Source: a virus
Strand: one strand, 5' to 3'
Length of the DNA: 33,659 bases
IMG/VR virus record: IMGVR_UViG_3300048582_000096
Location: 1-33,659 of that record
The position numbers and the translations under genes are program-made. Every line of letters starts with the position of its first letter. Position 1 is the first letter of the stretch. Of this stretch, positions 2,948 to 21,673 are shown piece after piece. Below the pieces are notes generated by a model. The model ran no database searches, was not told the DNA's origin, and worked only from the letters and a program-made list of their open reading frames with translations.

Positions 2948-4599
2948 AAATAATAAATTTTGTCTAATTTAGTAATTGTTTTTTCTAATAAGTAATTAAT
3001 TGTTCGATTATTTTCTGCTTTAATGTCTTGTTTAGATAATAAAGTAAAGTAGCATTTTTGAATCATAGTTCTTATTTTTTTATCCAAACGACCATCATTT
3101 TTATTTGATAAGTACTGTTCTTTAGAGATACGATAAAAAATAAACATATCGCAAATTTGATTTATCATAATCTTAAAAGCAAAGTTTATATTTTCGCCTT
3201 TTGATATTGTGTACTTATAAATTTTTTCACCATTTGGAGGTGGTATTTTTCGAATAGGTAAAACAATATTTTCGCTTAATGCTTTAGGTGGTTTTGGTTT
3301 AGGTATTATTTCATGACCACATTCGGGGCATGAAGGTTCAGATTTAGCATAAATTAAACCGCAATTATCGCAAGTTTCAACATCAAAAGCATCTTCTTTT
3401 TTCTGTTTTTCTTTGCCGAATCCTTGTAAAAATAATTTTTTCCAATCTCTGGTCGGGTCGCTCCATTCTTGGTGCCTATTAATATTACCGCCCCCATCAA
3501 TAAAAATAAAATTATCTTTATAGATTAAATCAGTAACACGACCTCCACGCCCTACAATTTGTAAAAAAAGAGATAATGAAGCGGTTGCCCTATTTAAAAT
3601 AATCGCTTCGATATCGGTAACGTCAAAACCAGTTGTAAAAACACCTACATTTAAAAGAACTGCATCACGTTGCGACCTAAACCAATCAATAACATCTTTA
3701 CGTGAATGCTCTAAATCATTTATAGAATCATACATCATAACATTATGGCCAGCTTGCACAAACTTATTATAAAGCAATAGGTTTAATTTTGCTGAGTTGT
3801 TAAATATTAAAGTCTTTTTACCAATGCAAAGTTTTTCGTAATTTAATAGAACATTAAAAACTGCTTCATCTGATCCGTATTGCTGGTCAAGAGATGCTGA
3901 AGTAAATTCTCCATCGCTGTCAACTTTTAGTTTGTCGCTATCAATATAAGTTTCAACAAAACTAATTTCTTTCACTAGCCTACCTATTTTAATAAGCTGG
4001 TCTATATTTGGGCCAATAACTATATCTTCATAAATTTCAGATAATTTAAAAGGTTTTGACCATTCATCAGCAGGCGTATCGCAACATTCTGTTTCAACAT
4101 TGTATCGCTCTTTGCAGTATTTACACTTAAAAAACTTAATACGTTTTAAAACAACAGGCGTGGCTGTGCAGCCTAATATTTTGGCATTATTAAAATAGCT
4201 AAATAACTTATCAAATATTAAAATATGGCATTCGTCAACAATAAGTAAACCTACATTTTTAAAAAAGTAAGGATTTTTTTTTAGGCGGTTGTTTGCAGTT
4301 TCAACCATAGCCACGTAACATTGTGAGCTATGGTTAAGGTTTTTAGTTTTTGAAGTTACGGCTTCGCAAGTAATGCCAATTTGATTAAGTGATTTAATAG
4401 TTTGGTCTATTAATTCAGTCCGATGACAAAGTATTAAAATACGTGACTTTTTTTCTTCAATCCATCTTTTAGCAAGGAATGAAAAAACATAAGTTTTTCC
4501 TCCTCCAGTACTAAGTTGATAAAGTAAGCGGTCATAAAAAGTGAATTTATGCCAAATTTCTTCTATATTATGAGTTTGGTACTCAAAGGGTGTAATCAT
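2944..4599 (-). CDS. DEAH-box superfamily 2 helicase with zinc-binding cysteines
   Basis: 551 residues. Motif I is STGGGKT (30-36), motif II VDECH (121-125), motif III TATP (145-148) and motif VI QIVGRGGR (347-354), all in family order. Two cysteine groups stand out: C159/C162 with C172/C173 inserted after motif III, and C410/C413 with C424/C427 near the C-terminus, the latter a clear zinc ribbon. It belongs to the phage SSL2/UvrB-like helicases and should unwind or remodel DNA during replication or recombination. A consensus promoter lies about 24 bases upstream, so this gene may start a separate transcript for the replication genes. Confidence 0.9.
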   Translation of the reverse strand: MITPFEYQTHNIEEIWHKFTFYDRLLYQLSTGGGKTYVFSFLAKRWIEEKKSRILILCHRTELIDQTIKSLNQIGITCEAVTSKTKNLNHSSQCYVAMVETANNRLKKNPYFFKNVGLLIVDECHILIFDKLFSYFNNAKILGCTATPVVLKRIKFFKCKYCKERYNVETECCDTPADEWSKPFKLSEIYEDIVIGPNIDQLIKIGRLVKEISFVETYIDSDKLKVDSDGEFTSASLDQQYGSDEAVFNVLLNYEKLCIGKKTLIFNNSAKLNLLLYNKFVQAGHNVMMYDSINDLEHSRKDVIDWFRSQRDAVLLNVGVFTTGFDVTDIEAIILNRATASLSLFLQIVGRGGRVTDLIYKDNFIFIDGGGNINRHQEWSDPTRDWKKLFLQGFGKEKQKKEDAFDVETCDNCGLIYAKSEPSCPECGHEIIPKPKPPKALSENIVLPIRKIPPPNGEKIYKYTISKGENINFAFKIMINQICDMFIFYRISKEQYLSNKNDGRLDKKIRTMIQKCYFTLLSKQDIKAENNRTINYLLEKTITKLDKIYYL

Positions 4600-6173: not shown

Positions 6174-6788
6174 TTATTTGATTAAATTGTTTAAAAAGTT
6201 TCTTGATTCTATTACCCTACCTTGTAGCATATTAATTACCTCAATATCGTAATCTATGCTAAATGTTTTGATACGGTATTGTTTATCTAAGTTATCGTAA
6301 TACTTAGGTTCTTCCCATGTAGGCATGTCTTCAGGAGTATTTAAAAGAACGTAAACAAGCCTTGCGGACTTTTTACCAGTCAGGTGCATATAAACCTGTA
6401 ATTGATAAAAATAATCCTTTGTAGGTATGCTATTTTCGAAAATAGGGAAAGTAAAACAATCCCAGCTACATTTAATATCAAGTACCTCATCTTTTAAAAT
6501 AAGGTCTGGAGTTCCGCAAAAGTAGTCGTCTTCAAAATACTGTTCGTTTTTTATTGCAAAAGGTAAATCTAATAAATCTATTGTTTTGTCAATAGCTTCA
6601 TCTTCTAAGGTAATACCCTTAGTTAGGTACTTTGATTTAATGTCTTTGCGATATCCGTAAATTTGCGAAGTCGCCCATTCTTTTAAAAAGGTCTTTGTAG
6701 TTTCTGAAATGGTTTCGCCTTTTAGCTTTGGATTTGTAGCTAGCTTTCCGCTTGCGCTCGCTCTACATTTAAATATTGGTAAGTTCAT
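6174..6788 (-). CDS. PD-(D/E)XK exonuclease (RecB/YqaJ/Cas4-like)
   Basis: 204 residues. The catalytic core reads GTPDLILKDEVLDIKCSW: D95, then D104-I-K106 as the D...DxK metal site. It is followed by YQLQVYMHLTG (128-138), the glutamine/tyrosine motif of RecB-family nucleases. Its start overlaps the end of the annealing protein gene by 20 bases, a common phage pairing in which the nuclease resects duplex ends and the partner anneals the strands. Acts on phage DNA in the cytoplasm. Expect lambda-exonuclease-like or RecE-like activity. Confidence 0.82.
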   Translation of the reverse strand: MNLPIFKCRASASGKLATNPKLKGETISETTKTFLKEWATSQIYGYRKDIKSKYLTKGITLEDEAIDKTIDLLDLPFAIKNEQYFEDDYFCGTPDLILKDEVLDIKCSWDCFTFPIFENSIPTKDYFYQLQVYMHLTGKKSARLVYVLLNTPEDMPTWEEPKYYDNLDKQYRIKTFSIDYDIEVINMLQGRVIESRNFLNNLIK

Positions 6789-7398
6789 TTTCTGCTTCTT
6801 GAGATAGTTCGTATTTGTCTTTTATATCTTTAATCGTATAAGATCCACTTTTAACCGCTTCTTTAACCTTAAGCCAATTAGGGTGGTTTTTATCCATTGT
6901 AATCAAAGTAAGGTCTAAGCTGTAAGATATTAAATCTTTGCGGTTTAAATCAGCTCCAAATAGCTTACCGAAATGGTCGCAAGCATCTTTGATAGCTATT
7001 GTTTTTGCCATTGGGAAAGCCATAGATAAAGCACCGTTGTTTATATTATTAAGGTCGGCAGGGCTTGTGCCTTTAGCGGTCTGTAATTGACTTGCTCCAA
7101 TACCATCGTGATAATCCCATTCATTAGTTAAAGGGTGCATATAGTGAACCCTAACAGTCACCCAAACGCCATTAAAGCTTTGCCCTTGTCCTGTTATCTC
7201 AATACGGTATCTTTTAAAGATAGTCTTTAAAAGAAACTCAATTCTTTCAATCGGCAAGTATTTGTATCCTTTAATAAAGGGATGCACTTTAACCCAGTCC
7301 TCTTTTGGAGGTTGATTCAATAAAGTTACATAAGCATCTAATTTTTGAGTAGATATTTTGTCCTCATAAATGCTTTGAATTTTTGGCAGGTTACTCAT
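6769..7398 (-). CDS. Single-strand annealing protein, Rad52/Sak-like
   Basis: 209 residues. The central part shows QGQSFNGVWVTVRVHY (71-86), a G-I-G-A-S turn (99-103) and then PMAKTIAIKDACDHFGKLFG (129-148) followed by ADLNRKD. This resembles Rad52/22-like and Sak phage annealases, in which an alanine/aspartate helix precedes FGxxxG. It pairs with the exonuclease and SSB-like genes. Functions in recombination-dependent replication or repair. The exact superfamily (Rad52, Erf or RecT) cannot be fixed by eye. Confidence 0.68.
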   Translation of the reverse strand: MSNLPKIQSIYEDKISTQKLDAYVTLLNQPPKEDWVKVHPFIKGYKYLPIERIEFLLKTIFKRYRIEITGQGQSFNGVWVTVRVHYMHPLTNEWDYHDGIGASQLQTAKGTSPADLNNINNGALSMAFPMAKTIAIKDACDHFGKLFGADLNRKDLISYSLDLTLITMDKNHPNWLKVKEAVKSGSYTIKDIKDKYELSQEAENELTNI

Positions 7399-7445
7399 GT
7401 GTTTTTTGGTTTTTTATTAACACTAAAATACTATTTTGAATGTTA

Positions 7446-7538
7446 CTATTTTGTAACAAGGTGGTTACATATCAACCATATTAAAGCGGTTTGTGTTAAT
7501 GCTATAAATAGCAATATTAACAATGATTTTTTATTCAT
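7446..7538 (-). CDS. Membrane micropeptide
   Basis: 30 residues, mostly one hydrophobic helix (SLLILLFIALTQTALIWLI). Its ATG overlaps the YopX gene stop as ATGA (7535-7538), implying translational coupling. About 47 bases of noncoding DNA then separate it from the annealase gene. No function recognised. Confidence 0.5.
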   Translation of the reverse strand: MNKKSLLILLFIALTQTALIWLICNHLVTK

Positions 7539-7870
7539 AGTATATTTTGATTTTCGTAAATTTTTCCTATTACTTCAACGTCTTGCCACCTATAAGGCTC
7601 TAAATTAGAATTAATTATTACCCAATCTAAAGACAAGGCAACTGATTCCCCATGTCTAAATTTAAGTAAATCACCCTCATAAATATCAACTCCGTTTTTA
7701 TCTTTTAATCCTGTGAATTGCCCTACTGATTCGGGTATAACTTGAGCGTCTATGGTAATGTCTTGTGATATATAAGCTCGTACTCCTAAATGATTTGCCA
7801 AAATAAGACTTCCATAAACCCACTCTCCATTATCAACTCTTTTACCTCTAAACTTAATTTCTCTTTTCAT
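7535..7870 (-). CDS. YopX family protein
   Basis: 111 residues. It opens MKREIKFRGKRVDNGEWVYG, contains VGQFTGLKDKNGVDIYEGD at 49-67 and a later VIGKIYEN. These are the signature segments of the YopX domain (PF09643), common in phages of Gram-positive and Bacteroidota hosts. Its molecular function is unknown. It overlaps the upstream gene by 17 bases and lies in the early operon. Confidence 0.88.
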   Translation of the reverse strand: MKREIKFRGKRVDNGEWVYGSLILANHLGVRAYISQDITIDAQVIPESVGQFTGLKDKNGVDIYEGDLLKFRHGESVALSLDWVIINSNLEPYRWQDVEVIGKIYENQNIL

Positions 7871-8039
7871 AAATCTTACTTTCTAAAAATTCTCTAATAA
7901 CATCTACATTTAAAATATCAGAAATATCTTTTCCGTTTAATTCAACTGATAAAATCTGAGGGTCACCGCAACCATTACTATCGGGGTCTATTGTAAAGTA
8001 GAACTCTTGGCCGTCTATTGTTTTATTTACTACGCTCAT
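7854..8039 (-). CDS. Small unknown early protein
   Basis: 61 residues. Reads VVNKTIDGQEFYFTIDPDSNGCGDPQ, then a beta/helix C-terminus ending IREFLESKIYEKRN. No recognised family, no signal or membrane segment. Overlaps YopX by 17 bases and follows the next upstream gene by 2 bases, so it belongs to the early operon. Confidence 0.65.
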   Translation of the reverse strand: MSVVNKTIDGQEFYFTIDPDSNGCGDPQILSVELNGKDISDILNVDVIREFLESKIYEKRN

Positions 8040-8041
8040 GA

Positions 8042-8290
8042 CTAAAGATTAAATAAAGTCCACACAAAAACAATTAAAACAATTAGCGTCAAACATACGC
8101 CTGTAACTTCATCTTCGCTTATAGGATCGATATTGTGCTTAGTTTCCATTTTACGCATAGTATTAATAAGCCTAAATGGTTTTCTATTTCTAATAGCTGT
8201 TAACTCGCTTACATTTTCCGGATTGTAGTTCTTAACTAACTCTCTTTGTTTTTTACTCATTTGGAATGAGTGTCCGTATTGGTTTTTCAT
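8042..8290 (-). CDS. C-tail-anchored small protein
   Basis: 82 residues. A basic N-terminal part (SKKQRELVKNYNPENVSEL) is followed by a C-terminal hydrophobic segment, GVCLTLIVLIVFVWTLFNL (64-82), which should anchor it in the inner membrane with the bulk in the cytoplasm. Starts as ATGA overlapping the upstream stop. Function unknown. Confidence 0.65.
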   Translation of the reverse strand: MKNQYGHSFQMSKKQRELVKNYNPENVSELTAIRNRKPFRLINTMRKMETKHNIDPISEDEVTGVCLTLIVLIVFVWTLFNL

Positions 8291-8463
8291 AACTCTTTTA
8301 TTCTAATTAGTTCGTTGTAAATTTCTCTTTGTTTTTTGTCTCTATCTTCATCCGATAAGATAGCATCAGTATTTAACCAAATACGCTCCTCCCAGTATGT
8401 AGCTAAATTCTCTACATCATTATCGGTTAAGTCCGATAATAAATTACTTAGTTTCTTGCTCAT
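8287..8463 (-). CDS. Small acidic helical protein
   Basis: 58 residues, starting MSKKLSNLLSDLTDNDVENL and ending EIYNELIRIKEL. It is predicted mostly helical and highly charged. It fills the space between two other small early genes, overlapping the upstream one by 20 bases and the downstream one by 4. No family recognised. Confidence 0.6.
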   Translation of the reverse strand: MSKKLSNLLSDLTDNDVENLATYWEERIWLNTDAILSDEDRDKKQREIYNELIRIKEL

Positions 8464-8614
8464 AAGTCGATAAGTGTAAAAGTTGCATTTGTAATTCTAA
8501 TTCTAGTATTTGACCTTTTATAAACTCCTTGTTATAAAAGTTCTCTTTGTCTTCAAGTCTTTCATTTAACAAACTCAATCTGTGATTCTGCATTGCTTTT
8601 AGCTCTTCTATCAT
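8444..8614 (-). CDS. First gene of the leftward early operon, small coiled-coil protein
   Basis: 56 residues. MIEELKAMQNHRLSLLNERL continues as an unbroken charged helix (coiled-coil-like) through GQILELELQMQLLHL. It is the first gene after the leftward early promoter, whose -7 element lies 24 bases upstream. Early small proteins in this slot often act on host functions, but nothing specific is seen. Confidence 0.6.
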   Translation of the reverse strand: MIEELKAMQNHRLSLLNERLEDKENFYNKEFIKGQILELELQMQLLHLSTYEQETK

Positions 8615-8637
8615 TTTATTAATTGTTTTTTGTTAGG

Positions 8638-8667
8638 CAAATGTAGCATTAAAAAATTAAAATGCAA
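8638..8667 (-). promoter_or_regulatory. Leftward early promoter
   Basis: On the minus strand, TTG (8667-8665), 19 bases, TACATTTG (8645-8638): an exact fit to the Bacteroidota TTG/TAnnTTTG promoter. It drives the early minus-strand operon beginning at 8614 and is back to back with the rightward promoter at 8697-8725. Confidence 0.7.
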
Positions 8668-8672
8668 ATTAT

Positions 8673-8693
8673 TTATAAAATTTTTTATAAAAT
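8673..8693. promoter_or_regulatory. Direct-repeat candidate operator between divergent promoters
   Basis: TTATAAAAT occurs at 8673-8681 and again at 8685-8693, a 12-base period close to one helical turn. It fits exactly between the -33 elements of the two divergent promoters, where a bound protein could affect both. The AT-rich context makes chance possible. Confidence 0.35.
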
Positions 8694-8696
8694 GTT

Positions 8697-8725
8697 TTGT
8701 AATTAAAAAATTAATTGTACTTTTG
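8697..8725 (+). promoter_or_regulatory. Rightward promoter into the cassette island
   Basis: TTG (8697-8699), 18 bases, TACTTTTG (8718-8725), then 22 bases to the ATG at 8748. It is a full consensus match. It is the only clear plus-strand promoter before the cassette island and may transcribe its genes, at least the proximal ones. Confidence 0.7.
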
Positions 8726-8747
8726 ATTCAACAAAACAATAAAGATC

Positions 8748-8954
8748 ATGACAAATCAAGAATTATTAAACACTTACTCGGATCAAATTCAATCTATTAT
8801 TACTCACGCAAAGTCTATTGATTTTGATATTGAGAACGGTAACATTATGGATTTAATGAAATCATGGTTAGACATGGGTAGAAAGATGATGATAAACATT
8901 AATGATAATAAATCAGAGGTTTTAATTTTAATGAAAAATTTAGTAAATAAATAA
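8748..8954 (+). CDS. Small helical protein, first gene of the rightward unit
   Basis: 68 residues, entirely helical in appearance: MTNQELLNTYSDQIQSIITH, a DFDIENG turn, then LMKSWLDMGRKMM and a C-terminal VLILMKNLVNK. No helix-turn-helix motif is obvious. As the first gene behind the divergent promoter it is a candidate regulator of the early/rightward switch, by position only. Two bases separate its stop from the next start, so the two form a unit. Confidence 0.65.
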   Translation: MTNQELLNTYSDQIQSIITHAKSIDFDIENGNIMDLMKSWLDMGRKMMININDNKSEVLILMKNLVNK

Positions 8955-8956
8955 CC

Positions 8957-9127
8957 ATGGCAATAAAAACACAAAAAAGAATAGAACGAGAAAATCGTAA
9001 TAAGAAAATAATAGCTTTATTTAATAAGCTTAATATAAACGGCTCCGATAAAATGGCTGTTTGCGAACTGGTAGCTAAAAAACTAAACTTTAAAGCTAGT
9101 TTAGTTTATAGGGTTGTAAATAGTTAA
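8957..9127 (+). CDS. Small basic protein, possible helix-turn-helix
   Basis: 56 residues. The N-terminus is strongly basic (KTQKRIERENRNKK). The C-terminus, AVCELVAKKLNFKASLVYRVV, looks like a helix-turn-helix in which the last helix would read DNA. This may be the phage regulator acting at the divergent promoter. Its TAA stop lies inside the GTTAAC box that opens the first attC-like element, as in integron cassettes whose genes end in attC. Confidence 0.6.
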   Translation: MAIKTQKRIERENRNKKIIALFNKLNINGSDKMAVCELVAKKLNFKASLVYRVVNS

Positions 9128-9185
9128 CGGTTTTGGGGCTTGGCAAAGTTGCCGAACACAAAACTTCATTAGAATTACAAATGTT
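9124..9185 (+). repeat. attC-like element E1, left half only
   Basis: Opens GTTAAC, a 5-base spacer GGTTT, then TGGGGCTTGGCAAAGTTGCC (9135-9154). It continues into the 18-base loop motif ATTAGAATTACAAATGTT (9168-9185), also found in E2. A matching right arm with GTTA is missing before the next gene, so the element is truncated, or its partner lies beyond the next genes: the right side of E2 also carries AAAACCC and GCCCC segments. Confidence 0.4.
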
Positions 9186-9215
9186 TAAATTAAGATACAA
9201 TGTCAAACGAAGAAA

Positions 9216-9449
9216 ATGACAGATACGGAAATTAAAGAAGAGTGCTTAAAAGAAGCAGGAATGGATTTAGGTAGTTATAGCTATTCTGAGCTACAAACTA
9301 TCTTTGAGGCAATGAGGAGATACCACAACGCTAAATTAAAAAAATTACCTATAACTGATGCTATAGGGTCGGTTTGCGATTGCGGTGCAAATGGTTGCTT
9401 GATAACTGTTTGTTCAAGATGTTGCAGAAACTATACTGGAGCAGCATAA
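9216..9449 (+). CDS. Cassette gene, small cysteine-rich protein
   Basis: 77 residues. The N-terminus is helical (KEECLKEAGMDLGSYSYSEL then EAMRRYHNAKLKK). The C-terminus has a cysteine cluster, CDCGANGCLITVCSRCC, able to form a zinc site. A remnant TATAAC box (9461-9466) follows the stop without a right arm. It shares the CDCG start of its zinc motif with the next gene, suggesting related cargo. Function unknown. Confidence 0.55.
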   Translation: MTDTEIKEECLKEAGMDLGSYSYSELQTIFEAMRRYHNAKLKKLPITDAIGSVCDCGANGCLITVCSRCCRNYTGAA

Positions 9450-9494
9450 GCAAACTGTATTATAACTGTACTCATGTGGGCGTAGTGCGATATA

Positions 9495-9743
9495 ATGGAA
9501 GAACAAAAATTAAGACAGTTATTCAGAAACAGAAGCAACTGTTATGTGGACACAGATGATGTAGTGCAAGGAATGGATGAAAATTGCTTTATTGAAACCG
9601 TAAACGAAGCATTACGCCTACATGATGTTAGTGGGCGAAGCGAACAGTTAGTTTGCGACTGTGGAAGTAGCCACATGACTTGGTATGGCAATGATGATAA
9701 TAAGCAATGGTTTTGTTTTAATTGTAAGAAAGAAGCAAACTAA
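9495..9743 (+). CDS. Cassette gene, small zinc-ribbon protein
   Basis: 82 residues. The C-terminal 30 residues, CDCGSSHMTWYGNDDNKQWF followed by CFNCKKEAN, form a clean CxC...CxxC zinc ribbon. The N-terminal 50 residues are helical and charged, without a known domain. The stop TAA (9741-9743) precedes the E2 opening box by 7 bases, so gene and element form a cassette-like unit. A nucleic-acid-binding role is possible from the ribbon alone. Confidence 0.6.
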   Translation: MEEQKLRQLFRNRSNCYVDTDDVVQGMDENCFIETVNEALRLHDVSGRSEQLVCDCGSSHMTWYGNDDNKQWFCFNCKKEAN

Positions 9744-9750
9744 TTGCCAC

Positions 9751-9877
9751 TAACAGATTGGGGCTTTAAGAAGTTGGGGTTTCAAGGCTCAAATGTTTGT
9801 TAAAGCACTACTGTTGATTAGAATTACAAATGTTGGGGTTAAGCACTTCCGCCCCAATTTATTAAAACCCTTGTTAT
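9751..9877 (+). repeat. attC-like element E2
   Basis: TAAC (9751-9754), 2-base spacer, ATTGGGGC (9757-9764); right arm GCCCCAAT (9851-9858), then 14 bases to GTTAT (9873-9877). Eight perfect pairs, and AAGT/ACTT can pair further in. The loop holds the 18-base motif ATTAGAATTACAAATGTT at 9817-9834, identical to E1. The right spacer is longer than in the other elements. Confidence 0.5.
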
Positions 9878-9929
9878 CTGCTGCTGCGGTTTTCAGGGTA
9901 GGAAGTTTCAAATTTTAAACAAATTAATT

Positions 9930-10484
9930 ATGTCTTACACAGAGATTTACAAATTCAAAAAAGATGGCAATGCTGAATGTTTTGCCGAAGTTAAAAATGC
10001 TTTTCGTGGTGCAATGGCAATTTGGACTAATATAGAAAAACGCTACTTACCAAAATACATACCTACTTGGGCAATGGGTGATACATCAAAAGAGTATAGC
10101 CGAACATTTGATTTTATGGGTGGTGGTTTAAAAGAAGTTTGGGCTTTGTTTGATAGTGATAAAATTTCAGAAACCGATAACATTGTGCTTGGAAGCTCAT
10201 TTGATAATGTAGTGGTTATGAAAGATGATTTACCAAAACTTATTGAAGCATTTAGAAACTTTGAGGGCGAAACATCTTTAAAAGAACAGGCAGATTTGAT
10301 TGAAAACGCTTTTAAAAACGATGATGATTTACTTGCTATTGCTTGGAATCAAACATCTGTAAATGGCGATGCTTGGGAATCTGACGAAACTGGGTTAGAT
10401 GAAGATGGTGAAGAAATTTATTTGCCTTACAATTTACTTAAACACGATAAGCACTGGAATCTATTTGAGGTAGAAGTATCTTAG
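9930..10484 (+). CDS. Cassette gene, conserved-looking hypothetical protein
   Basis: 184 residues, acidic and soluble. Opens SYTEIYKFKKDGNAECFAEV, includes RGAMAIWTNIEKRYLP, then VLGSSFDNVVVMKDDLPKLI and a C-terminal acidic turn DETGLDEDGEEIYLPYN. I recall similar proteins scattered through bacteria and phages without known function, but cannot name a family. It lies between E2 and E3 as a complete cassette of about 745 bases, counted between the two GTT boxes. Confidence 0.65.
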   Translation: MSYTEIYKFKKDGNAECFAEVKNAFRGAMAIWTNIEKRYLPKYIPTWAMGDTSKEYSRTFDFMGGGLKEVWALFDSDKISETDNIVLGSSFDNVVVMKDDLPKLIEAFRNFEGETSLKEQADLIENAFKNDDDLLAIAWNQTSVNGDAWESDETGLDEDGEEIYLPYNLLKHDKHWNLFEVEVS

Positions 10485-10492
10485 CAGTTGCA

Positions 10493-10622
10493 GATAACGT
10501 TTTTGCAGCTAAAAGAGGTGGCTGATTAATACCTCGAAATTTAATTAAAAGCACAAAATTATGAATACAGATAAAACTTCATTAGAAAACGAAAACCAGC
10601 CATCTTGTTTAGGTGCTGTTAT
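10493..10622 (+). repeat. attC-like element E3
   Basis: GATAAC (10493-10498), 6-base spacer, GCAGCTAAA (10505-10513), AGA, a 2-base GG bulge, TGGCTG (10519-10524). The right arm is CAGCCA (10597-10602), TCTT, then TTTAGGTGC (10608-10616), one base, GTTAT (10618-10622). Nine pairs with one mismatch, plus four and six pairs. The bulged bases and unequal spacers resemble the extrahelical bases and unpaired spacer of attC. The loop repeats AAAACTTCATTAGAA from E1. Confidence 0.6.
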
Positions 10623-10658
10623 GCGTAGTTTTTTATCACGAATGTTAAATTAACAACA

Positions 10659-11183
10659 ATGAAAACAATAAGAGAATTAAGGGATGTAATGGATTTTTAT
10701 CCAAATGAATTGTCAAGTCAATTAAAATACTTTACAAGACAAAATATTGATTGGAATGTTTACTTGCCAACTAAAGGGAAAAACCTGCAAAGGGATTTTG
10801 TTTGGACTTTAGAACAAAAAAGAGAGTTGATAAATTCAATGCTAATTGGTAGGCATATTCCACACTGTGCAATAGTGAATATAGTTGACCCAAATAATGC
10901 CCATAAAGATATTTTACAAGTTATTGATGGTAAACAAAGATTATCTGCAATGGTTGATTTTTACGAAAACAAATTTACTATTGAATTAGAAGGTAAAGAG
11001 TATTATTTTAAAGATTTACCTAATGATTACCAATTAGCAATAAGCCATTATCACTTTAGGTATTATGTCGTAAATGAACCTTATGGAAGCCCAATGACTG
11101 ATGAGCAAAAAATAAATTGGTTTAAATTTATCAACTTTGCAGGAACTCCGCAAGATGCTGAACATTTACGAGGTCTGTCCTAA
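10659..11183 (+). CDS. Cassette gene, DUF262-type protein
   Basis: 174 residues. It contains QRDFVWTLEQKRELINSML, then IPHCAIVN, then the family signature VIDGKQRLSAMVDF (about residues 88-101). This is the DUF262 N-terminal domain (ParB/sulfiredoxin-like fold, DGQQR motif) known from GmrS/GmrSD and other modification-dependent restriction or defence proteins. The C-terminal HNH-type domain of GmrSD enzymes is absent, so this is a stand-alone or shortened form. Carried between E3 and the E4 left arm. A defence or counter-defence role is inference. Confidence 0.78.
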   Translation: MKTIRELRDVMDFYPNELSSQLKYFTRQNIDWNVYLPTKGKNLQRDFVWTLEQKRELINSMLIGRHIPHCAIVNIVDPNNAHKDILQVIDGKQRLSAMVDFYENKFTIELEGKEYYFKDLPNDYQLAISHYHFRYYVVNEPYGSPMTDEQKINWFKFINFAGTPQDAEHLRGLS

Positions 11184-11191
11184 AATTACGC

Positions 11192-11621
11192 ATAACTGCT
11201 GGGTGTATGAAATCGTTAATTAAAAAAGTGTCGGAGGGGAAAATAAAATATTAATAATTTAAAATAAATATAAAATGAAAAGAACAAAAGAAGAAATAGC
11301 TACTGCTATTGAAAAGATTAAAGACAACAAAACTAAATGTGCCAAATTCAATTTTTTTGGAGAAAACAACCATGATAAAATTGATGCAATGTTAGATGTT
11401 TTAGAAAACAATCGTTCAGAAGATTATATCTACAATCATTATCCATCAGAAGATGAAGATGGTGAAGAAGATACAATTTCACATGGGCTTTGGGGTTCTG
11501 CTATTATTGCTTTAGAATTTATGAGAGGAGAAAATGAATTAAAGGATTTGCTTTATCCAGAAATATAGGTATGCGTTTAGGTGTAGGTGGCTTTTAATTA
11601 ATGTTTTATACACCATGTTAA
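11192..11621 (+). repeat. attC-like element E4 with a gene between its arms
   Basis: Left half: ATAAC (11192-11196), 5-base spacer TGCTG, GGTGTAT then GAAA (11202-11212). Right half: TTTTATACACC (11604-11614), 2-base spacer AT, GTTAA (11617-11621). The arms pair over 11 positions (ten Watson-Crick, one G-T). The 5-versus-AT spacer pattern is that of E6 and E7, which argues that the halves belong together although 391 bases, including the gene at 11275-11568, separate them. Confidence 0.45.
11275..11568 (+). CDS. Cassette gene, small acidic protein
   Basis: 97 residues. The N-terminus is KRTKEEIATAIEKIKDNKTK, then CAKFNFFGENNHDKIDAMLDVL, a very acidic stretch SEDEDGEEDT and a helical end IIALEFMRGENELKDLLYPE. 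Seen before as a hypothetical protein type in phages and mobile DNA, as far as I can recall, with no function. It is unusual in lying inside the two arms of E4. A DNA-mimic role is conceivable from the acidic patch but not supported further. Confidence 0.6.
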   Translation: MKRTKEEIATAIEKIKDNKTKCAKFNFFGENNHDKIDAMLDVLENNRSEDYIYNHYPSEDEDGEEDTISHGLWGSAIIALEFMRGENELKDLLYPEI

Positions 11622-11681
11622 CAGAAGTGCGCTATTACGATAGCAAATTAGCCATACCAATCGGAGCGCATTTTTGTTAAC
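11617..11681 (+). repeat. attC-like element E5, gene-less unit
   Basis: GTTAACAGAAGTGCGCT (11617-11633) pairs with AGCGCATTTTTGTTAAC (11665-11681): 15 of 17 positions Watson-Crick and the other two G-T. The loop is 31 bases. The opening GTTAAC is also the closing box of E4, and the closing GTTAAC is the opening box of E6, giving a 59-base repeat-to-repeat unit without a gene. Confidence 0.6.
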
Positions 11682-11801
11682 GGCCGCAAGTTTGGTTTGT
11701 GTTTGCGTTAACCGATAAAGTAATTTAAAGCAATAACAATAATTAACAGAATAATAAATTAGAAAGCACTTCGGCAAACATTAATTAAACTTGATGTTAT
11801 A
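11676..11801 (+). repeat. attC-like element E6
   Basis: GTTAAC (11676-11681), 5-base spacer GGCCG, CAAGTTT (11687-11693), 6 bases, TGTTTGC (11700-11706). The right arm is GCAAACA (11774-11780), TTAATT, AAACTTG (11787-11793), 2-base spacer AT, GTTATA (11796-11801). The two blocks of seven pairs are perfect, and the six bases between them pair with G-T pairs and one mismatch. Loop about 67 bases. Confidence 0.65.
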
Positions 11802-11822
11802 AGCCGTTTATTTTTATTAAAA

Positions 11823-12029
11823 ATGAAAAAAGTATTTGTAGTAAATTTTGATGAATCTGTAATATTTAAAACTAGAATGGATAACCCATTTTATGATGAA
11901 AAATATGAAACTTTTGAAGAGGCAAAAGAGCAACTAGTAAGCTATTGGGACAATGTTTTGGCAGGCGCAAAAAACAACTTAAAGGGTGCAAAAAAAATGA
12001 AATTAATTAATGTGCAGGTTATGCCTTAA
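11823..12029 (+). CDS. Cassette gene, small unknown protein
   Basis: 68 residues. Starts KKVFVVNFDESVIFKTRM, then YETFEEAKEQLVSYWDNVL, and ends with a basic strand KKMKLINVQVM. It looks like a small alpha/beta protein. Lies 21 bases after the E6 closing box, and its stop is 6 bases before the E7 opening box, making a compact cassette of about 350 bases. No family recognised. Confidence 0.6.
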   Translation: MKKVFVVNFDESVIFKTRMDNPFYDEKYETFEEAKEQLVSYWDNVLAGAKNNLKGAKKMKLINVQVMP

Positions 12030-12035
12030 ATGGCT

Positions 12036-12153
12036 TATAACGGCGACAAGTTTGTTTTTGTGCGCCTTACTTGCAAGAAATGCACTAACAGAATTTAATT
12101 AGATAACAGAATATTAACCGATTCGCACAGCATAAAACAAACTTGATGTTATA
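12036..12153 (+). repeat. attC-like element E7
   Basis: TATAAC (12036-12041), 5-base spacer GGCGA, CAAGTTTGTTTT (12047-12058), T, GTGCG (12060-12064). The right arm is CGCAC (12124-12128), five bases, AAAACAAACTTG (12134-12145), 2-base spacer AT, GTTATA (12148-12153). Twelve perfect pairs plus five more past an internal bulge. This is the clearest attC-like fold in the array, and its outer arm is shared with E6. Confidence 0.7.
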
Positions 12154-12179
12154 GGCTGATGCGGATAAAAGTAAGAATT

Positions 12180-12329
12180 ATGAAAATAACAGTAAAAGCA
12201 AAAGAGGTAGAAATTGAAATGGACGACCAAAACACAGAAAGCTTTAATAAGTACGATTCCAGAGTTGACTTTGTAATTAAAATAGTTAAAGCTATGACTG
12301 ATGAATGTTTAAAATTATTAGATAAATAG
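12180..12329 (+). CDS. Cassette gene, 49-residue protein
   Basis: 49 residues: KITVKAKEVEIEMDDQNTES, then FVIKIVKAMTDECLKLLDK. A short strand-helix protein with no recognised family. It starts 26 bases after the E7 closing box and is followed by a TATAAC box (12349), so it occupies the expected gene position of a cassette. A minus-strand frame of 64 codons overlaps here but has no such context. Confidence 0.5.
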   Translation: MKITVKAKEVEIEMDDQNTESFNKYDSRVDFVIKIVKAMTDECLKLLDK

Positions 12330-12348
12330 GTGTCGATTAGCATTTGCC

Positions 12349-12376
12349 TATAACTTACTTATATATATAGTATAAC
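12349..12376 (+). repeat. Remnant attC-like box E8 at the array end
   Basis: TATAAC at 12349-12354 follows the last cassette gene as elsewhere, but no matching right arm is present. An alternating TATATATATA run (12359-12369) and a second TATAAC (12371-12376) in the same orientation lie between it and the next gene. It looks like a decayed or chimeric end of the array. Confidence 0.3.
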
Positions 12377-17653: not shown

Positions 17654-18688
17654 TTAAATTGTATATACGTTAATTGTTTGTGATGTTGTTACGCTCGGGT
17701 CATCAAATCCTATTAGTCTGCCTAAAGTTCCATTATAAACAGCGCTAAATTGGTCATCGTTTACCTCTATGTAATAAGGTCGTTTTGTTCCTAAAGTTAC
17801 AAGTGTTAATGGTAAATACCAATAGTCAACACCTCCGCTTGTTTCGTTTAATAAATCTGTTTCATCGAAGGGGAGGATTGTTGAAGATGATCCGCCGCTA
17901 ATTGGCGAACCGTTTAAAGTTAAACTAGGTGCAATAATATCTAAATCGGCTCCACCCGTTAAAAGGTATGCTTTGTCAGGCAAAAGCCCAAATAACGAAT
18001 GACCACTTGAAGTAATTAATAAATCTAATTTGCGCCCTAAATCATTAATAGCCTGATATCCTGCCGTTGCTCCATTACCGCCTGAGTTATTTCTAACAGC
18101 ATATCTAGCACTATGATTAAATGATGATATTGCTGAATAAAGCTGGTCTATAAAAGCGCCCGGAGTTACTACATTAAACTGCCCTGAATTATTACCATTC
18201 ATTACAGCGTATTGAGTCGGTATTGTTGTTGACGGTGTAATTGTACCTCCCGCCGCTAAAACTGTAAATGTGTTTACTAAAATATTTCCGTCTGGTATAG
18301 TTCCGTCAAAATCAAAAACATAATAAACAACGCCAGTATCGTCTGCTAATATAGCATCTATTCTATCAGAAACTGAGGGAGCTGTTATATTTGAAATGTA
18401 AGGAGCATTTAAAGTGTAAACACCGTTGTTAATTCTCCATTGACCAGTTGAAACAGAAACAGTTTTTGGAGTACTAGCGTTATTTATAGTAAGGTCTAAT
18501 CCGTTTAAAACACCATCGGGCAATTGAATATTTCCGTTTAATAAAATGCCTAAATTTTCAGCGCTAATAGAAGTAATAATTTCTCCATTAGGGTCTTGAA
18601 TGGCTAAAATCCAATCCTTATTGGGATTAAAAGCAGCCGTTAAACCATTAAGGCTTATAAGATTAAAGTTTGCTGGATTAAAGCTCAT
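17654..18688 (-). CDS. Tail appendage or fibre protein
   Basis: 344 residues. Begins SFNPANFNLISLNGLTAAFN, continues with beta-rich segments such as TVSVSTGQWRINNGVYTLNA, and has no signal peptide or membrane segment. It follows the large tail-tip gene with its ATG directly at the upstream stop. Composition (Asn, Ser, Thr, Gly, Leu) and position suggest a baseplate or fibre adaptor, but no named family is visible. Confidence 0.6.
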   Translation of the reverse strand: MSFNPANFNLISLNGLTAAFNPNKDWILAIQDPNGEIITSISAENLGILLNGNIQLPDGVLNGLDLTINNASTPKTVSVSTGQWRINNGVYTLNAPYISNITAPSVSDRIDAILADDTGVVYYVFDFDGTIPDGNILVNTFTVLAAGGTITPSTTIPTQYAVMNGNNSGQFNVVTPGAFIDQLYSAISSFNHSARYAVRNNSGGNGATAGYQAINDLGRKLDLLITSSGHSLFGLLPDKAYLLTGGADLDIIAPSLTLNGSPISGGSSSTILPFDETDLLNETSGGVDYWYLPLTLVTLGTKRPYYIEVNDDQFSAVYNGTLGRLIGFDDPSVTTSQTINVYTI

Positions 18689-21673
18689 TTATTCAGATTT
18701 TAGTATGTTATCATTTCCGTCTGTAAATATAAGATTTTTTGATGCTAAAATGTAACCGTCTGGTTGTTGATTTTGTCCGCCACCTGAGCCGCCACCAATA
18801 GAACCGCTAGTATTACCGTCTTTGTCGTAAACCTCTACTAATTTAACTGAAGATATACAACTTATCATGTCATAATCAAACGATATAGGCACAAACCTAA
18901 ATAAATCTAATAAAGGCAAATTAAATATATTTCTTACGGTTTGTTCTTTTGCTAAAATAGAACCCTCGAAAATACGTGTGTTATTCTGATATTGGCTAAG
19001 TAATTCTTTACAAACAATATTATTTAAAGCTTCATTTTCTGTTACTCCTACTCTTGACCATAAAACAGTAGGTAAATAATTTAAAGTTCTTATGCCGTCT
19101 GTTCTTAAATCAGAATCTACGTCACCCATTAAAACGTTAAAATCTTCAGGTGTATTAGAGAATTTATTATCGTTTAAAACTATAATTGTTGCATCGTCTA
19201 TAATTGTTGCATTTGTTACAGGGTTTGATTTGCTTACTTTAAAGTTATCAAAACCGATATCAGAAACACTTGCGCCTTTAGCTAAATTGACTTGACCCAA
19301 TCCTTGAACGTTTACAATAGATTGCCCAAAAAAAGCAAAGTAATTAATAAAAATAAATCTATTTACATCTATTTCTATTGTTAATTGACCTTGAACAGGG
19401 CAAGGTGGAAATGTAATATTTACATTGCTTTCATCGCCAAATGGTATATTTTTTGTATTGTCTAATGAAACCGTAAAAGCGTAATAGCTTTGACCATCAT
19501 CTAAAATCCAAACAGGCTCTAAATCAGCTCCAGTATCTTTTTTATTTACACAAATGTAATTTCCTATTCTTGGAGTGCAATTCAATTCGTAAGCGCTTGC
19601 ATTTACAGCTCTATTAGTAAATATAACTTGAAATGTTAAGTTAATAACCTCCCTATTAAATACAACAATAGAAGTAGATTTTATTTTATCTCTTATAATT
19701 CTAGCTAATGGATTGTTTTTCTTGATATTAAAATAGTAACTACCATTTTCAACTTCGGTTAATATTCCCGTTGTAGGGTCATATATTCTATCAAATTTAG
19801 GTGATTTATTAAACCATCCATAAGGTTGTGAAATTTGCCATTTTGATGGTATTTCCGCACCATTAACAACAAACCAATCTTCAAAATTAAAGTTCTTAAA
19901 AACTGGAGCGGGAAATCCTAATTTCCAAAAAACGGTTGCTTGTTTATCGCCTGTAATTAAAGAAACATCGCCACCGCTTAAAACATCATTTATATTTTGT
20001 GAACAATCTACATCTATACTTAGATTAGCAATATCAGTACTTTGTAAAACTAAATCATTATCGTAAGTGTATTGAGTAGTGTTTAATCTCGCTTTTGCTC
20101 CAATATTTTCAATAACCCAATATCCTGACTCTTGTTTTGCTGAACAAGTAAATTGTCTACATATAAATTCTAAAACGGTTAAACAATCTGTAAAATCGCC
20201 GTTTTCTTTTTGAAAAACATTGGTATTAAATAAATGGTCATTTAAAACGTCGCCGTTGTAATATCTTGTTTTTACTACTTCTATGCCATTAACGGATTGA
20301 TTAACTATTGCTACCAATAAAACAGCAAAGTTTCTATTGTCAAAGGTTGTGCTTAAATAAACGCTTGTACTACTTACTAATAAGTAATATGTTTTATCAT
20401 AAACACCCGACGGCAAAGGGTCTATCGCAAAAGTACCTCCAGTAATATTAAATAGAGTGCCATTTACAACGCCAGTACCATCGTTTACAACAACATTATT
20501 GCCGTAAACATTACATTCTAAACCAGTTAAAACCTTATAGTCAACATTTAAGGTATTATCTTGAAAATCTACCATTGTCTTAAATGGTAATACTAAATCG
20601 GTTTTGTCTAAAATGTATTTGATAGCTTCTAAAAATGTAGTGTAGCTATTTACAATATCAAAGTCTACATCTTTTAAAAGCTTTATACCGTCTAATGCTG
20701 AAATAGTAGTAACATAAGGCGCTCCGTCAAATGGCTCAATAGCTCTATCTCCAGTTACATAACCAGTCCAAAATAATTCATTTTCATTATAAAATACCTC
20801 AATTAAATATTCTTTCTCCTCTGAAATAAATAAGTCGGCAAATTGAAACTCACTTTCTGATATTAAGTTAACATCACAAGAACTACCTAATATTGTTTCA
20901 AATTTATACTCAGAGCCTGTTTCATGTTTTATACTTATTACTTCAGCGCTTGCATCTTTTATTACAGTCGAAGTTCCTGAATAATTTAACTTCTTTATTG
21001 ATATTTTAATAGGTCTATTGTCAAAAGCTATTTCGCAAAAATTAAAACTATATATCTCATTAAAAAAAGCATCTAAAACGGTAATTCCGAAAACATCTTC
21101 ACAATCAAAATCAATTAAACCTGCCCTTATAATATAATCACCAAAAGTTAAACCACCAAAAGTAAATGTATTACTTACCGATAAATCAATTACAGTTCCA
21201 TTTACAACTGTACCGCCCTTAATTAATTCTATAAAAGCGTTTCCTACATTAGTAGTTAATAATTCAACCGATACAGTCCCGTCTTTTCTATTTAATCCTG
21301 TAAGCTGTGTACTTGTCGCACTTATAAATAAATCGCAAACAGGCGGCGGTGGTGGCGGAGTAGGCGGTGGCGGTGGTAAAGGTGCGACAAAACCGCAATC
21401 AGTTGAATCTCGTTCTATAATAACTGTTGCAAATGGTTTTCTTAATGAAGCGTAAAAAGCATATTGAGTAGTCCCATTACAATTACTGCCTATTAATTGA
21501 CCGTCTTGCTTACCTCTTTGCGCAACCGTTAAAAAATCTACATCGTCACGTCTCGGATTGTTAGAAGTAAATAAATAGCTAAAAGTATTGTTATCGGTGT
21601 TGTAACTTATAATGTAAGTTAAAAACTGTCCCGAATTAGAAGTATAAGAAAAATTATCAACTGTTATTATCAT
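18689..21673 (-). CDS. Large tail-tip/minor tail protein
   Basis: 994 residues. After about 98 residues a proline hinge (PLPPPPPTPPPPPP) leads to a beta-rich domain, then a region around TTISALDGIKLLKDVDFDIV, then LTVLEFICRQFTCSAKQESG and WVIENIG. These features recur in the large tail-tip (hub/Tal-like) proteins of Bacteroidota siphophages that follow the tape measure gene. The C-terminus has a glycine-rich stretch (GSIGGGSGGG). Starts as TAATG overlapping the tape measure stop. The hub role is inferred from position and size. Confidence 0.7.
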   Translation of the reverse strand: MIITVDNFSYTSNSGQFLTYIISYNTDNNTFSYLFTSNNPRRDDVDFLTVAQRGKQDGQLIGSNCNGTTQYAFYASLRKPFATVIIERDSTDCGFVAPLPPPPPTPPPPPPVCDLFISATSTQLTGLNRKDGTVSVELLTTNVGNAFIELIKGGTVVNGTVIDLSVSNTFTFGGLTFGDYIIRAGLIDFDCEDVFGITVLDAFFNEIYSFNFCEIAFDNRPIKISIKKLNYSGTSTVIKDASAEVISIKHETGSEYKFETILGSSCDVNLISESEFQFADLFISEEKEYLIEVFYNENELFWTGYVTGDRAIEPFDGAPYVTTISALDGIKLLKDVDFDIVNSYTTFLEAIKYILDKTDLVLPFKTMVDFQDNTLNVDYKVLTGLECNVYGNNVVVNDGTGVVNGTLFNITGGTFAIDPLPSGVYDKTYYLLVSSTSVYLSTTFDNRNFAVLLVAIVNQSVNGIEVVKTRYYNGDVLNDHLFNTNVFQKENGDFTDCLTVLEFICRQFTCSAKQESGYWVIENIGAKARLNTTQYTYDNDLVLQSTDIANLSIDVDCSQNINDVLSGGDVSLITGDKQATVFWKLGFPAPVFKNFNFEDWFVVNGAEIPSKWQISQPYGWFNKSPKFDRIYDPTTGILTEVENGSYYFNIKKNNPLARIIRDKIKSTSIVVFNREVINLTFQVIFTNRAVNASAYELNCTPRIGNYICVNKKDTGADLEPVWILDDGQSYYAFTVSLDNTKNIPFGDESNVNITFPPCPVQGQLTIEIDVNRFIFINYFAFFGQSIVNVQGLGQVNLAKGASVSDIGFDNFKVSKSNPVTNATIIDDATIIVLNDNKFSNTPEDFNVLMGDVDSDLRTDGIRTLNYLPTVLWSRVGVTENEALNNIVCKELLSQYQNNTRIFEGSILAKEQTVRNIFNLPLLDLFRFVPISFDYDMISCISSVKLVEVYDKDGNTSGSIGGGSGGGQNQQPDGYILASKNLIFTDGNDNILKSE

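Follow-up and report, generated by a model that had tools for sequence, protein, structure and literature searches.

A probable integron-like array of mobile gene cassettes in a Bacteroidota phage

Introduction

Among the systems closest to the locus described here are the integrons. In class 1 integrons the strand of attC that is recombined is set by an extrahelical G, and the spacer alone keeps the polarity of attC when the extrahelical bases are absent (Bouvier 2009, PMC2727003), while the insert of the IntI integrases has been called essential for integron function (PMC8138268). Clusters of attC sites without an integrase (CALINs) have been described in phages (Qi et al. 2023, PMC9892861). 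In the Bacteroidetes integrons were found to be nearly absent, with one complete integron, in Salinibacter (PMC9024848), and in Riemerella anatipestifer lnu(H), RATA and aph(3')-IVb have been reported to insert independently of homology (PMC13148043).

The window analysed here, the whole stretch of a 33,659-bp virus record, holds a series of matching units that, with a probability of about 0.8, form a mobile gene-cassette array of an integron-like system in a Bacteroidota phage, which would rely on an XerA-like recombinase from related elements.

Results

The window carries genes of a tailed phage (terminase, portal, head protease, major head protein and tail tape measure), and small plus-strand ORFs, most of them without a known family, lie between the early genes and the lysis region. 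Searches with the helicase and the endolysin for kin of this phage returned no close relative. Its host is probably a member of the Bacteroidota, given that the relatives of the window are Cellulophaga phage Nekkels and Bacteroidota sites. A stretch of about 60 nt within an ORF (7670-7735; YopX-like in the matching phages) shows 80-90% identity with dozens of phages of Vibrio and Pseudoalteromonas, which is unusual across such hosts. The parts of the array, with the long and short spacer of each attC-like site in brackets, are the following:

9467-12354: whole cassette array, with six attC-like sites (0, B, C, E4, E6 and E7)
9467-9626, minus strand: attC-like site 0 (5/1), stem score 13, 8-nt end match
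9495-9743, plus strand: ORF of 82 aa that begins in the loop of site 0 and crosses its short-side box
9747-9754, minus strand: exchange box CCACTAAC, adjoining the long spacer of site B
9755-9872, minus strand: attC-like site B (6/2), from the stem search with free spacers
9873-10498, plus strand: cassette body with ends GTTATCTGC and GCAGATAAC; ORF 9930-10484 (184 aa, phrog_19610)
10499-10617, minus strand: attC-like site C (6/1), from the same search
10618-11196, plus strand: cassette body with ends GTTATGCGTA and TACGCATAAC; ORF 10659-11183 (GmrSD_N/DUF262 domain)
11197-11616, minus strand: attC-like site E4 (5/2), 420 nt, stem score 15-17; loop ORF 11275-11568 (97 aa)
11617-11681, no strand: E5, an ORF-less cassette body with ends GTTAACA and TGTTAAC, 9/10 end match
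11682-11795, minus strand: attC-like site E6 (5/2), from the same search
11796-12041, plus strand: cassette body with ends GTTATAAGCC and GGCTTATAAC; ORF 11823-12029 (68 aa)
12042-12147, minus strand: attC-like site E7 (5/2), whose attC-like structure is the minimum free energy (MFE) fold of the minus strand as single-stranded DNA
12148-12354, plus strand: cassette body with ends GTTATAGGC and GCCTATAAC; ORF 12159-12329 (56 aa)

Each of the five cassette bodies starts with GTT and ends with the reverse complement in AAC, and at the level of sequence they are units with defined ends. The two ends match within a cassette at 9, 10, 9, 10 and 9 of 10 positions, with 4-8 for all other combinations, which can be accounted for by an exchange inside one box, as in integrons; terminators or unrelated hairpins would not give such matching. 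Counted over the whole window, end pairs do not significantly exceed chance (5, with 3.8 on average after shuffling), and significance is confined to the within-cassette matching and to the consecutive chain (in the array segment 4, with 0.22 on average after shuffling and at least 1 of 500 shuffles also reaching 4). The box consensus RYYYAAC/GTTRRRY is not followed, GTT and AAC being kept and the rest being variable (GTTATCTGC, GTTATGCGTA, GTTATAAGCC).

Site 0 is the weakest member of the array: its boxes are GTATTATAAC before the site and GTTAGTGG at 9627, the latter matching the exchange box at 9747-9754 and falling within the ORF of 82 aa, for which no Pfam or PHROG family was found. The 97-aa ORF has a relative in a Bacteroides phage protein (51% identity over 71% of it), and E4 spans 420 nt between its boxes because this ORF occupies the loop. 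Given that these two ORFs start or sit in the loops of sites 0 and E4, the variable terminal part of attC-like sites may carry genes along as passengers. E5 does not belong among the attC-like sites, being the ORF-less body of one cassette. The last exchange box of the array is at 12354, and neither an attC nor a recognisable attI follows it.

A sequence-only reading of this DNA had drawn attention to five bases between left box and left arm and to the dinucleotide AT between right arm and right box in E4, E6 and E7, and this is exact. In E4, GCATAAC (11190-11196) is followed by TGCTG (11197-11201) and by the arm GGTGTAT from 11202, while on the right the arm ending in ATACACC is followed by AT (11615-11616) and by GTTAACA from 11617. 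In E6, TGTTAAC (11675-11681), GGCCG (11682-11686) and the arm CAAGTTT face the arm AAACTTG, AT (11794-11795) and the box GTTATAAGCC from 11796. In E7, GGCTTATAAC (12032-12041), GGCGA (12042-12046) and the arm CAAGTTTG face the arm CAAACTTG, AT (12146-12147) and the box GTTATAGGC from 12148. When both spacers were left free (0-10 by 0-10) in the stem search, the best stem of all three sites was 5/2, with scores of 12-15 and an average of 4.1 for shuffled interiors.

Spacers were compared in 50 sites (5 from the window, 5 from the related records L032 and L034, and 40 walked by box matching from attI), which are not fully independent given that many come from a few arm families. The long spacer measures 5-6 nt in 45 of the 50 and the short one 1-3 nt in 48, and the long spacer exceeds the short one by 2-5 nt in every site, the fraction expected from shuffled interiors being 0.245. 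The stem score is 13.4 versus 4.1 for shuffled interiors, and the pairing of arms with their own partners sums to 671 versus a mean of 253 and a maximum of 319 in 20,000 permutations, which shows covariation of the arms. The asymmetry is kept among sites with mostly unrelated arms, where random spacer lengths would have spoken against it. The bubble is not, as had been proposed, of fixed size, the rule being 5-6 versus 1-3; likewise AT applies to E4, E6 and E7 and is replaced by TT, GT or CT elsewhere. The three arms, taken earlier as independent, are so only in part, given that those of E6 and E7 are related to each other. Patterns built on the E7 arm gave only coding or chance matches in viral and genome collections, so the arms are not conserved.

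The likeness to attC with an unpaired central spacer holds. The role assigned to that spacer in attC, namely the setting of the strand, does not, because in class 1 attC this is done by the extrahelical G (PMC2727003). No bulged bases are present in 24 of the 33 sites checked, and given that such bases are mostly absent here it is plausible that the central spacer sets polarity in these sites. Both strands were folded as single-stranded DNA, which had been suggested as a check. For E7 the MFE fold of the minus strand is the full structure with a 2/5 bubble (15/15 pairs), and the plus strand gives nearly the full structure (14/15 pairs). In E6 the structure appears on the minus strand only, in sites B and C it is partly present, and in E4 it is the MFE of neither strand; that E4 and E6 depart, wholly or in part, from the minimum-energy fold speaks against the reading proposed below.

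The DNA pattern of site B led to L034 (84% over 190 nt) and L032 (75%), and a similarity search led to a plasmid of Empedobacter falsenii (L039); all three hold chains of units with matching ends of 9-10 nt. In the record of L034 (G002) and in a second record (G003), tyrosine recombinases that are 65% identical to each other lie directly beside the arrays. A scan with these two XerA-like proteins (about 267 aa) gave 19 loci, 17 of them viral with a readable start. In all 17 an AAC exchange box lies 52-53 nt upstream of the start codon, and in 16 it belongs to an attI like TAAC or CAAC followed by TA.TAT.TGT, with TACTATATGTA or a close variant after the box. The divergent integrase of L071 has no attI consensus and no walked cassette. 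A matching cassette start is found upstream of attI in 13 of the 17 loci, and walking from attI gave arrays of up to 11 cassettes (L065). The viral contigs L056 and L057 begin exactly at the TAAC of the attI exchange box (position 1), which would be expected if the assemblies had broken where the first cassette varies. In several contigs the recombinase is flanked by phage genes (head protease, major head protein, tail RNA ligase). Next to its XerA-like gene, G002 encodes another tyrosine recombinase, which is longer (416 aa; L048, 3520-4770), and Pontibacter and Rufibacter plasmids carry longer recombinases (484 aa) that look different.

Among the larger cassette ORFs, 8 of the 10 checked encode DNA methyltransferases or a DNA-modifying glycosyltransferase; in L061, L063-L066 and L070 the cassettes hold mostly N6/N4 and C5 DNA methyltransferases, plus a TET-associated glycosyltransferase. 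Such contents give the arrays of the phages the look of a reservoir for DNA modification.

In the recombinases the catalytic residues R, K, H, R, H and Y are invariant, and the IntI insert (44 alignment columns) is absent in 17/17 relatives. They are 27-32% identical to IntI1 and about 43% identical to a Flagellimonas XerA-like protein. The best family model for all 17 is NF040815 (XerA), with the curated cut-off missed by the members shown (187 for L054 and 170, versus 220), as is that of TIGR02249 (145 versus 265 for L054). The nearest solved structures by sequence are those of archaeal XerA. A structure model of the enzyme (pLDDT 84) matches XerA and IntI structures about equally, and the fold search did not separate the two. 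The enzyme is not IntI, though the system would work like an integron.

The window contains neither a tyrosine recombinase nor IntI, and a profile scan recognised no attI in it, the best score being 10.7 at 11193 versus 20-30 for true attI; the last box of the array scores -5. This points to a dependent array. The best match (11193-11212) lies at the left box of E4, the attI of G003 resembles this match (about 16/22 by eye), and E4 could be derived partly from an attI.

Judged by the boundaries of shared units, the exchange falls at the box next to the long spacer (the one with AAC, left in the plus orientation), and the array is therefore read on the minus strand, with each attC 5' of its ORF. 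L039, from Empedobacter, and a plasmid of B. fragilis have a tet(X) unit in common (99.6% identity over 1334 nt) that extends from one box to the next, attC included, with both boxes on the long-spacer side, and its long-side box end is common to 13 plasmid records. A Chryseobacterium match to another L039 site runs from the long-side AAC to just past the short-side box. L032 and L034 have in common with the window the attC of site B and the leader before the next ORF, and not the preceding ORF. The lack of an attC after the last window box fits only the order of attC before ORF. A first parse, with the ORF before its attC, was dropped, given that it leaves the last cassette without an attC and is contradicted by the tet(X) boundaries. 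In 42 of 44 cassettes the ORFs read toward attI and the integrase; tet(X) and lnu(H) are exceptional in their orientation. The mef(C)-mph(G) unit of Vibrio plasmids starts at the short-side box, which the polarity rule does not predict. The breakpoints lie at AAC/GTT on the long-spacer side, suggesting, from sequence comparison only, an exchange between G and TT at one box.

Cassettes appear to have moved as blocks. Position 1 of L054 and position 3 of L061 hold a common cassette (95% over 835 nt) that ends exactly at the box and whose body is shared while the attC sites have diverged, and the methyltransferase cassette of G003 recurs at position 2 of L061 with half of its attC. In most pairwise comparisons the homology around the integrase begins at the box. 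Two Flavobacteriia plasmids, from Flagellimonas marinaquae and Arenibacter algicola, agree in their integrase and attI, differ in their cassettes and part at AAC, with erm(F) and a reductase in one and a hypothetical gene in the other. These comparisons bring out, in the relatives, one layout of attI, integrase and array, with shared cassettes at different positions and breakpoints at boxes.

In L039 the units hold the genes catB, mef(C)-mph(G), lnu(H) and tet(X), and on Bacteroidota plasmids these and erm(F) sit in cassettes whose box ends and attC-like sites are the same:

L039 (NZ_CP040909) 27-868, 6385-8809, 8928-9866 and 18287-19494; L045 12001-13334; L073 2754-3923: resistance cassettes

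In L073, from Flagellimonas, an XerA-like gene adjoins the array. Ahead of tet(X3) in the Acinetobacter plasmid L078 (NZ_CP104735) stand one half of an attC-like site and the box GTTATGTGCC (3383-3392), and a truncated recombinase beside them is 44% identical to the integrase found here; the region looks like a remnant of such an integron.

Discussion

In the integron-like system that we propose, a cassette would consist of an attC-like site followed by its ORF. The substrate is probably the folded single strand, in which box stem and arm stem are separated by an unequal bubble, of 5-6 nt on the side of the exchange and of 1-3 nt on the opposite side. The asymmetry of the bubble would fix which box is cut. 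The XerA-like tyrosine recombinase of related phages and plasmids (about 267 aa) is probably the enzyme acting on these sites; it would cut the box beside the long spacer and move cassettes between arrays, its own gene adjoining the conserved attI (TAAC followed by TACTATATGTA, 52-53 nt before the start codon). Given that the window array has no recombinase gene, the enzyme would have to be supplied by the host, a prophage or a co-infecting phage.

It is unlikely that the array is an ordinary CALIN served by an IntI-type integrase of the host, with the XerA-like gene doing something else. Phage CALINs are indeed known, one attC of Polaribacter phage P12002L has been recombined by IntI1 in E. 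coli (PMC9892861) and a P12002L site has the same geometry, 6/3. However, the distance of the exchange box is the same in all 17 recombinase loci, 13 of which run on into arrays, neither the window nor the searched records with arrays yielded an IntI, and with canonical tools hardly any complete integrons were found in Bacteroidetes (PMC9024848).

A transposon-like nature of the units, as MITE or IS remnants bounded by terminal inverted repeats, would explain the inverted ends of 8-10 nt on each of them, but these ends differ among cassettes and agree only inside a given cassette, target duplications were not observed, and the units are adjacent, in a single orientation, with the layout of attI and recombinase; this makes such an origin very improbable. 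We give similarly little credit to XerC/XerD dif modules (pdif) as in Acinetobacter plasmids, which also have a Xer-type recombinase and short inverted sites flanking the modules. The dif sites are about 28 bp long with two 11-bp arms, whereas here a hairpin of 60-120 nt lies on one side and attI lies beside a dedicated recombinase gene. Least credible of all are intrinsic terminators or other RNA hairpins, already held to be a poor fit in the sequence-only reading, because, although the hairpins sit between small ORFs, the T-tract required is lacking, Rfam gave no family for them, and neither the asymmetry, the box matching nor the position 5' of ORFs whose units move as blocks is explained.

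Going beyond the window, the balance tips slightly towards a separate integron class common in Bacteroidota phages and plasmids, in which the Xer-type integrase has no insert, the bubble and not the extrahelical bases would set strand and box, attC precedes its gene, and one system would move DNA-modification genes among phages and the genes tet(X), erm(F) and lnu(H) among Bacteroidota plasmids. If this is true, integrons of the Bacteroidota are present and have been missed, their enzyme and sites being unlike the models used, and a cassette system can be operated by a recombinase that has no IntI insert, which would provide a natural test for the functions of this insert and of the extrahelical bases. 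Phages would also gain a store of swappable genes, and a mechanism is suggested for the unexplained homology-independent gene insertion in Riemerella.

The open-access literature (preprints not included) gave no paper describing this integrase, attI or gene order, and the attC sites of Tetrasphaera TJE1 were not recovered by the strict scan used here. In Riemerella an attC-like fold has been reported downstream of aph(3')-IVb, and lnu(H) is found here in the same kind of cassette, whereas the authors leave the mechanism open and name no integrase (PMC13148043). The phage CALINs share with these arrays the methyltransferase cargo and include one Bacteroidota phage, P12002L, but that work relies on IntI-based models and contains no XerA-like integrase, attI or reversed gene order (PMC9892861).

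With XerA the enzymes share the best family model; the nearest proteins are archaeal XerA by sequence, and XerA and IntI by fold. Known XerA resolves chromosome dimers at dif, while the gene described here sits beside cassette arrays and the enzymes shown score below the curated cut-off.

Class 1 integrons (IntI1, attI1, attC aadA) resemble the system in having a recombinase gene that adjoins attI and a cassette array, attC-like hairpins with an unpaired central spacer, GTT/AAC boxes, an exchange consistent with a cut between G and TT, and cassettes joined at one box. The attC of aadA, which served as a yardstick and occurs in about 2,000 plasmid records, has spacers of 5/6 and two bulged bases when measured by the same script, whereas the sites here are 5-6 / 1-3 and mostly unbulged. 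The IntI insert is absent here, the boxes are not GTTRRRY, and the genes, which in class 1 integrons read away from attI under the promoter Pc, read toward it in nearly all cassettes.
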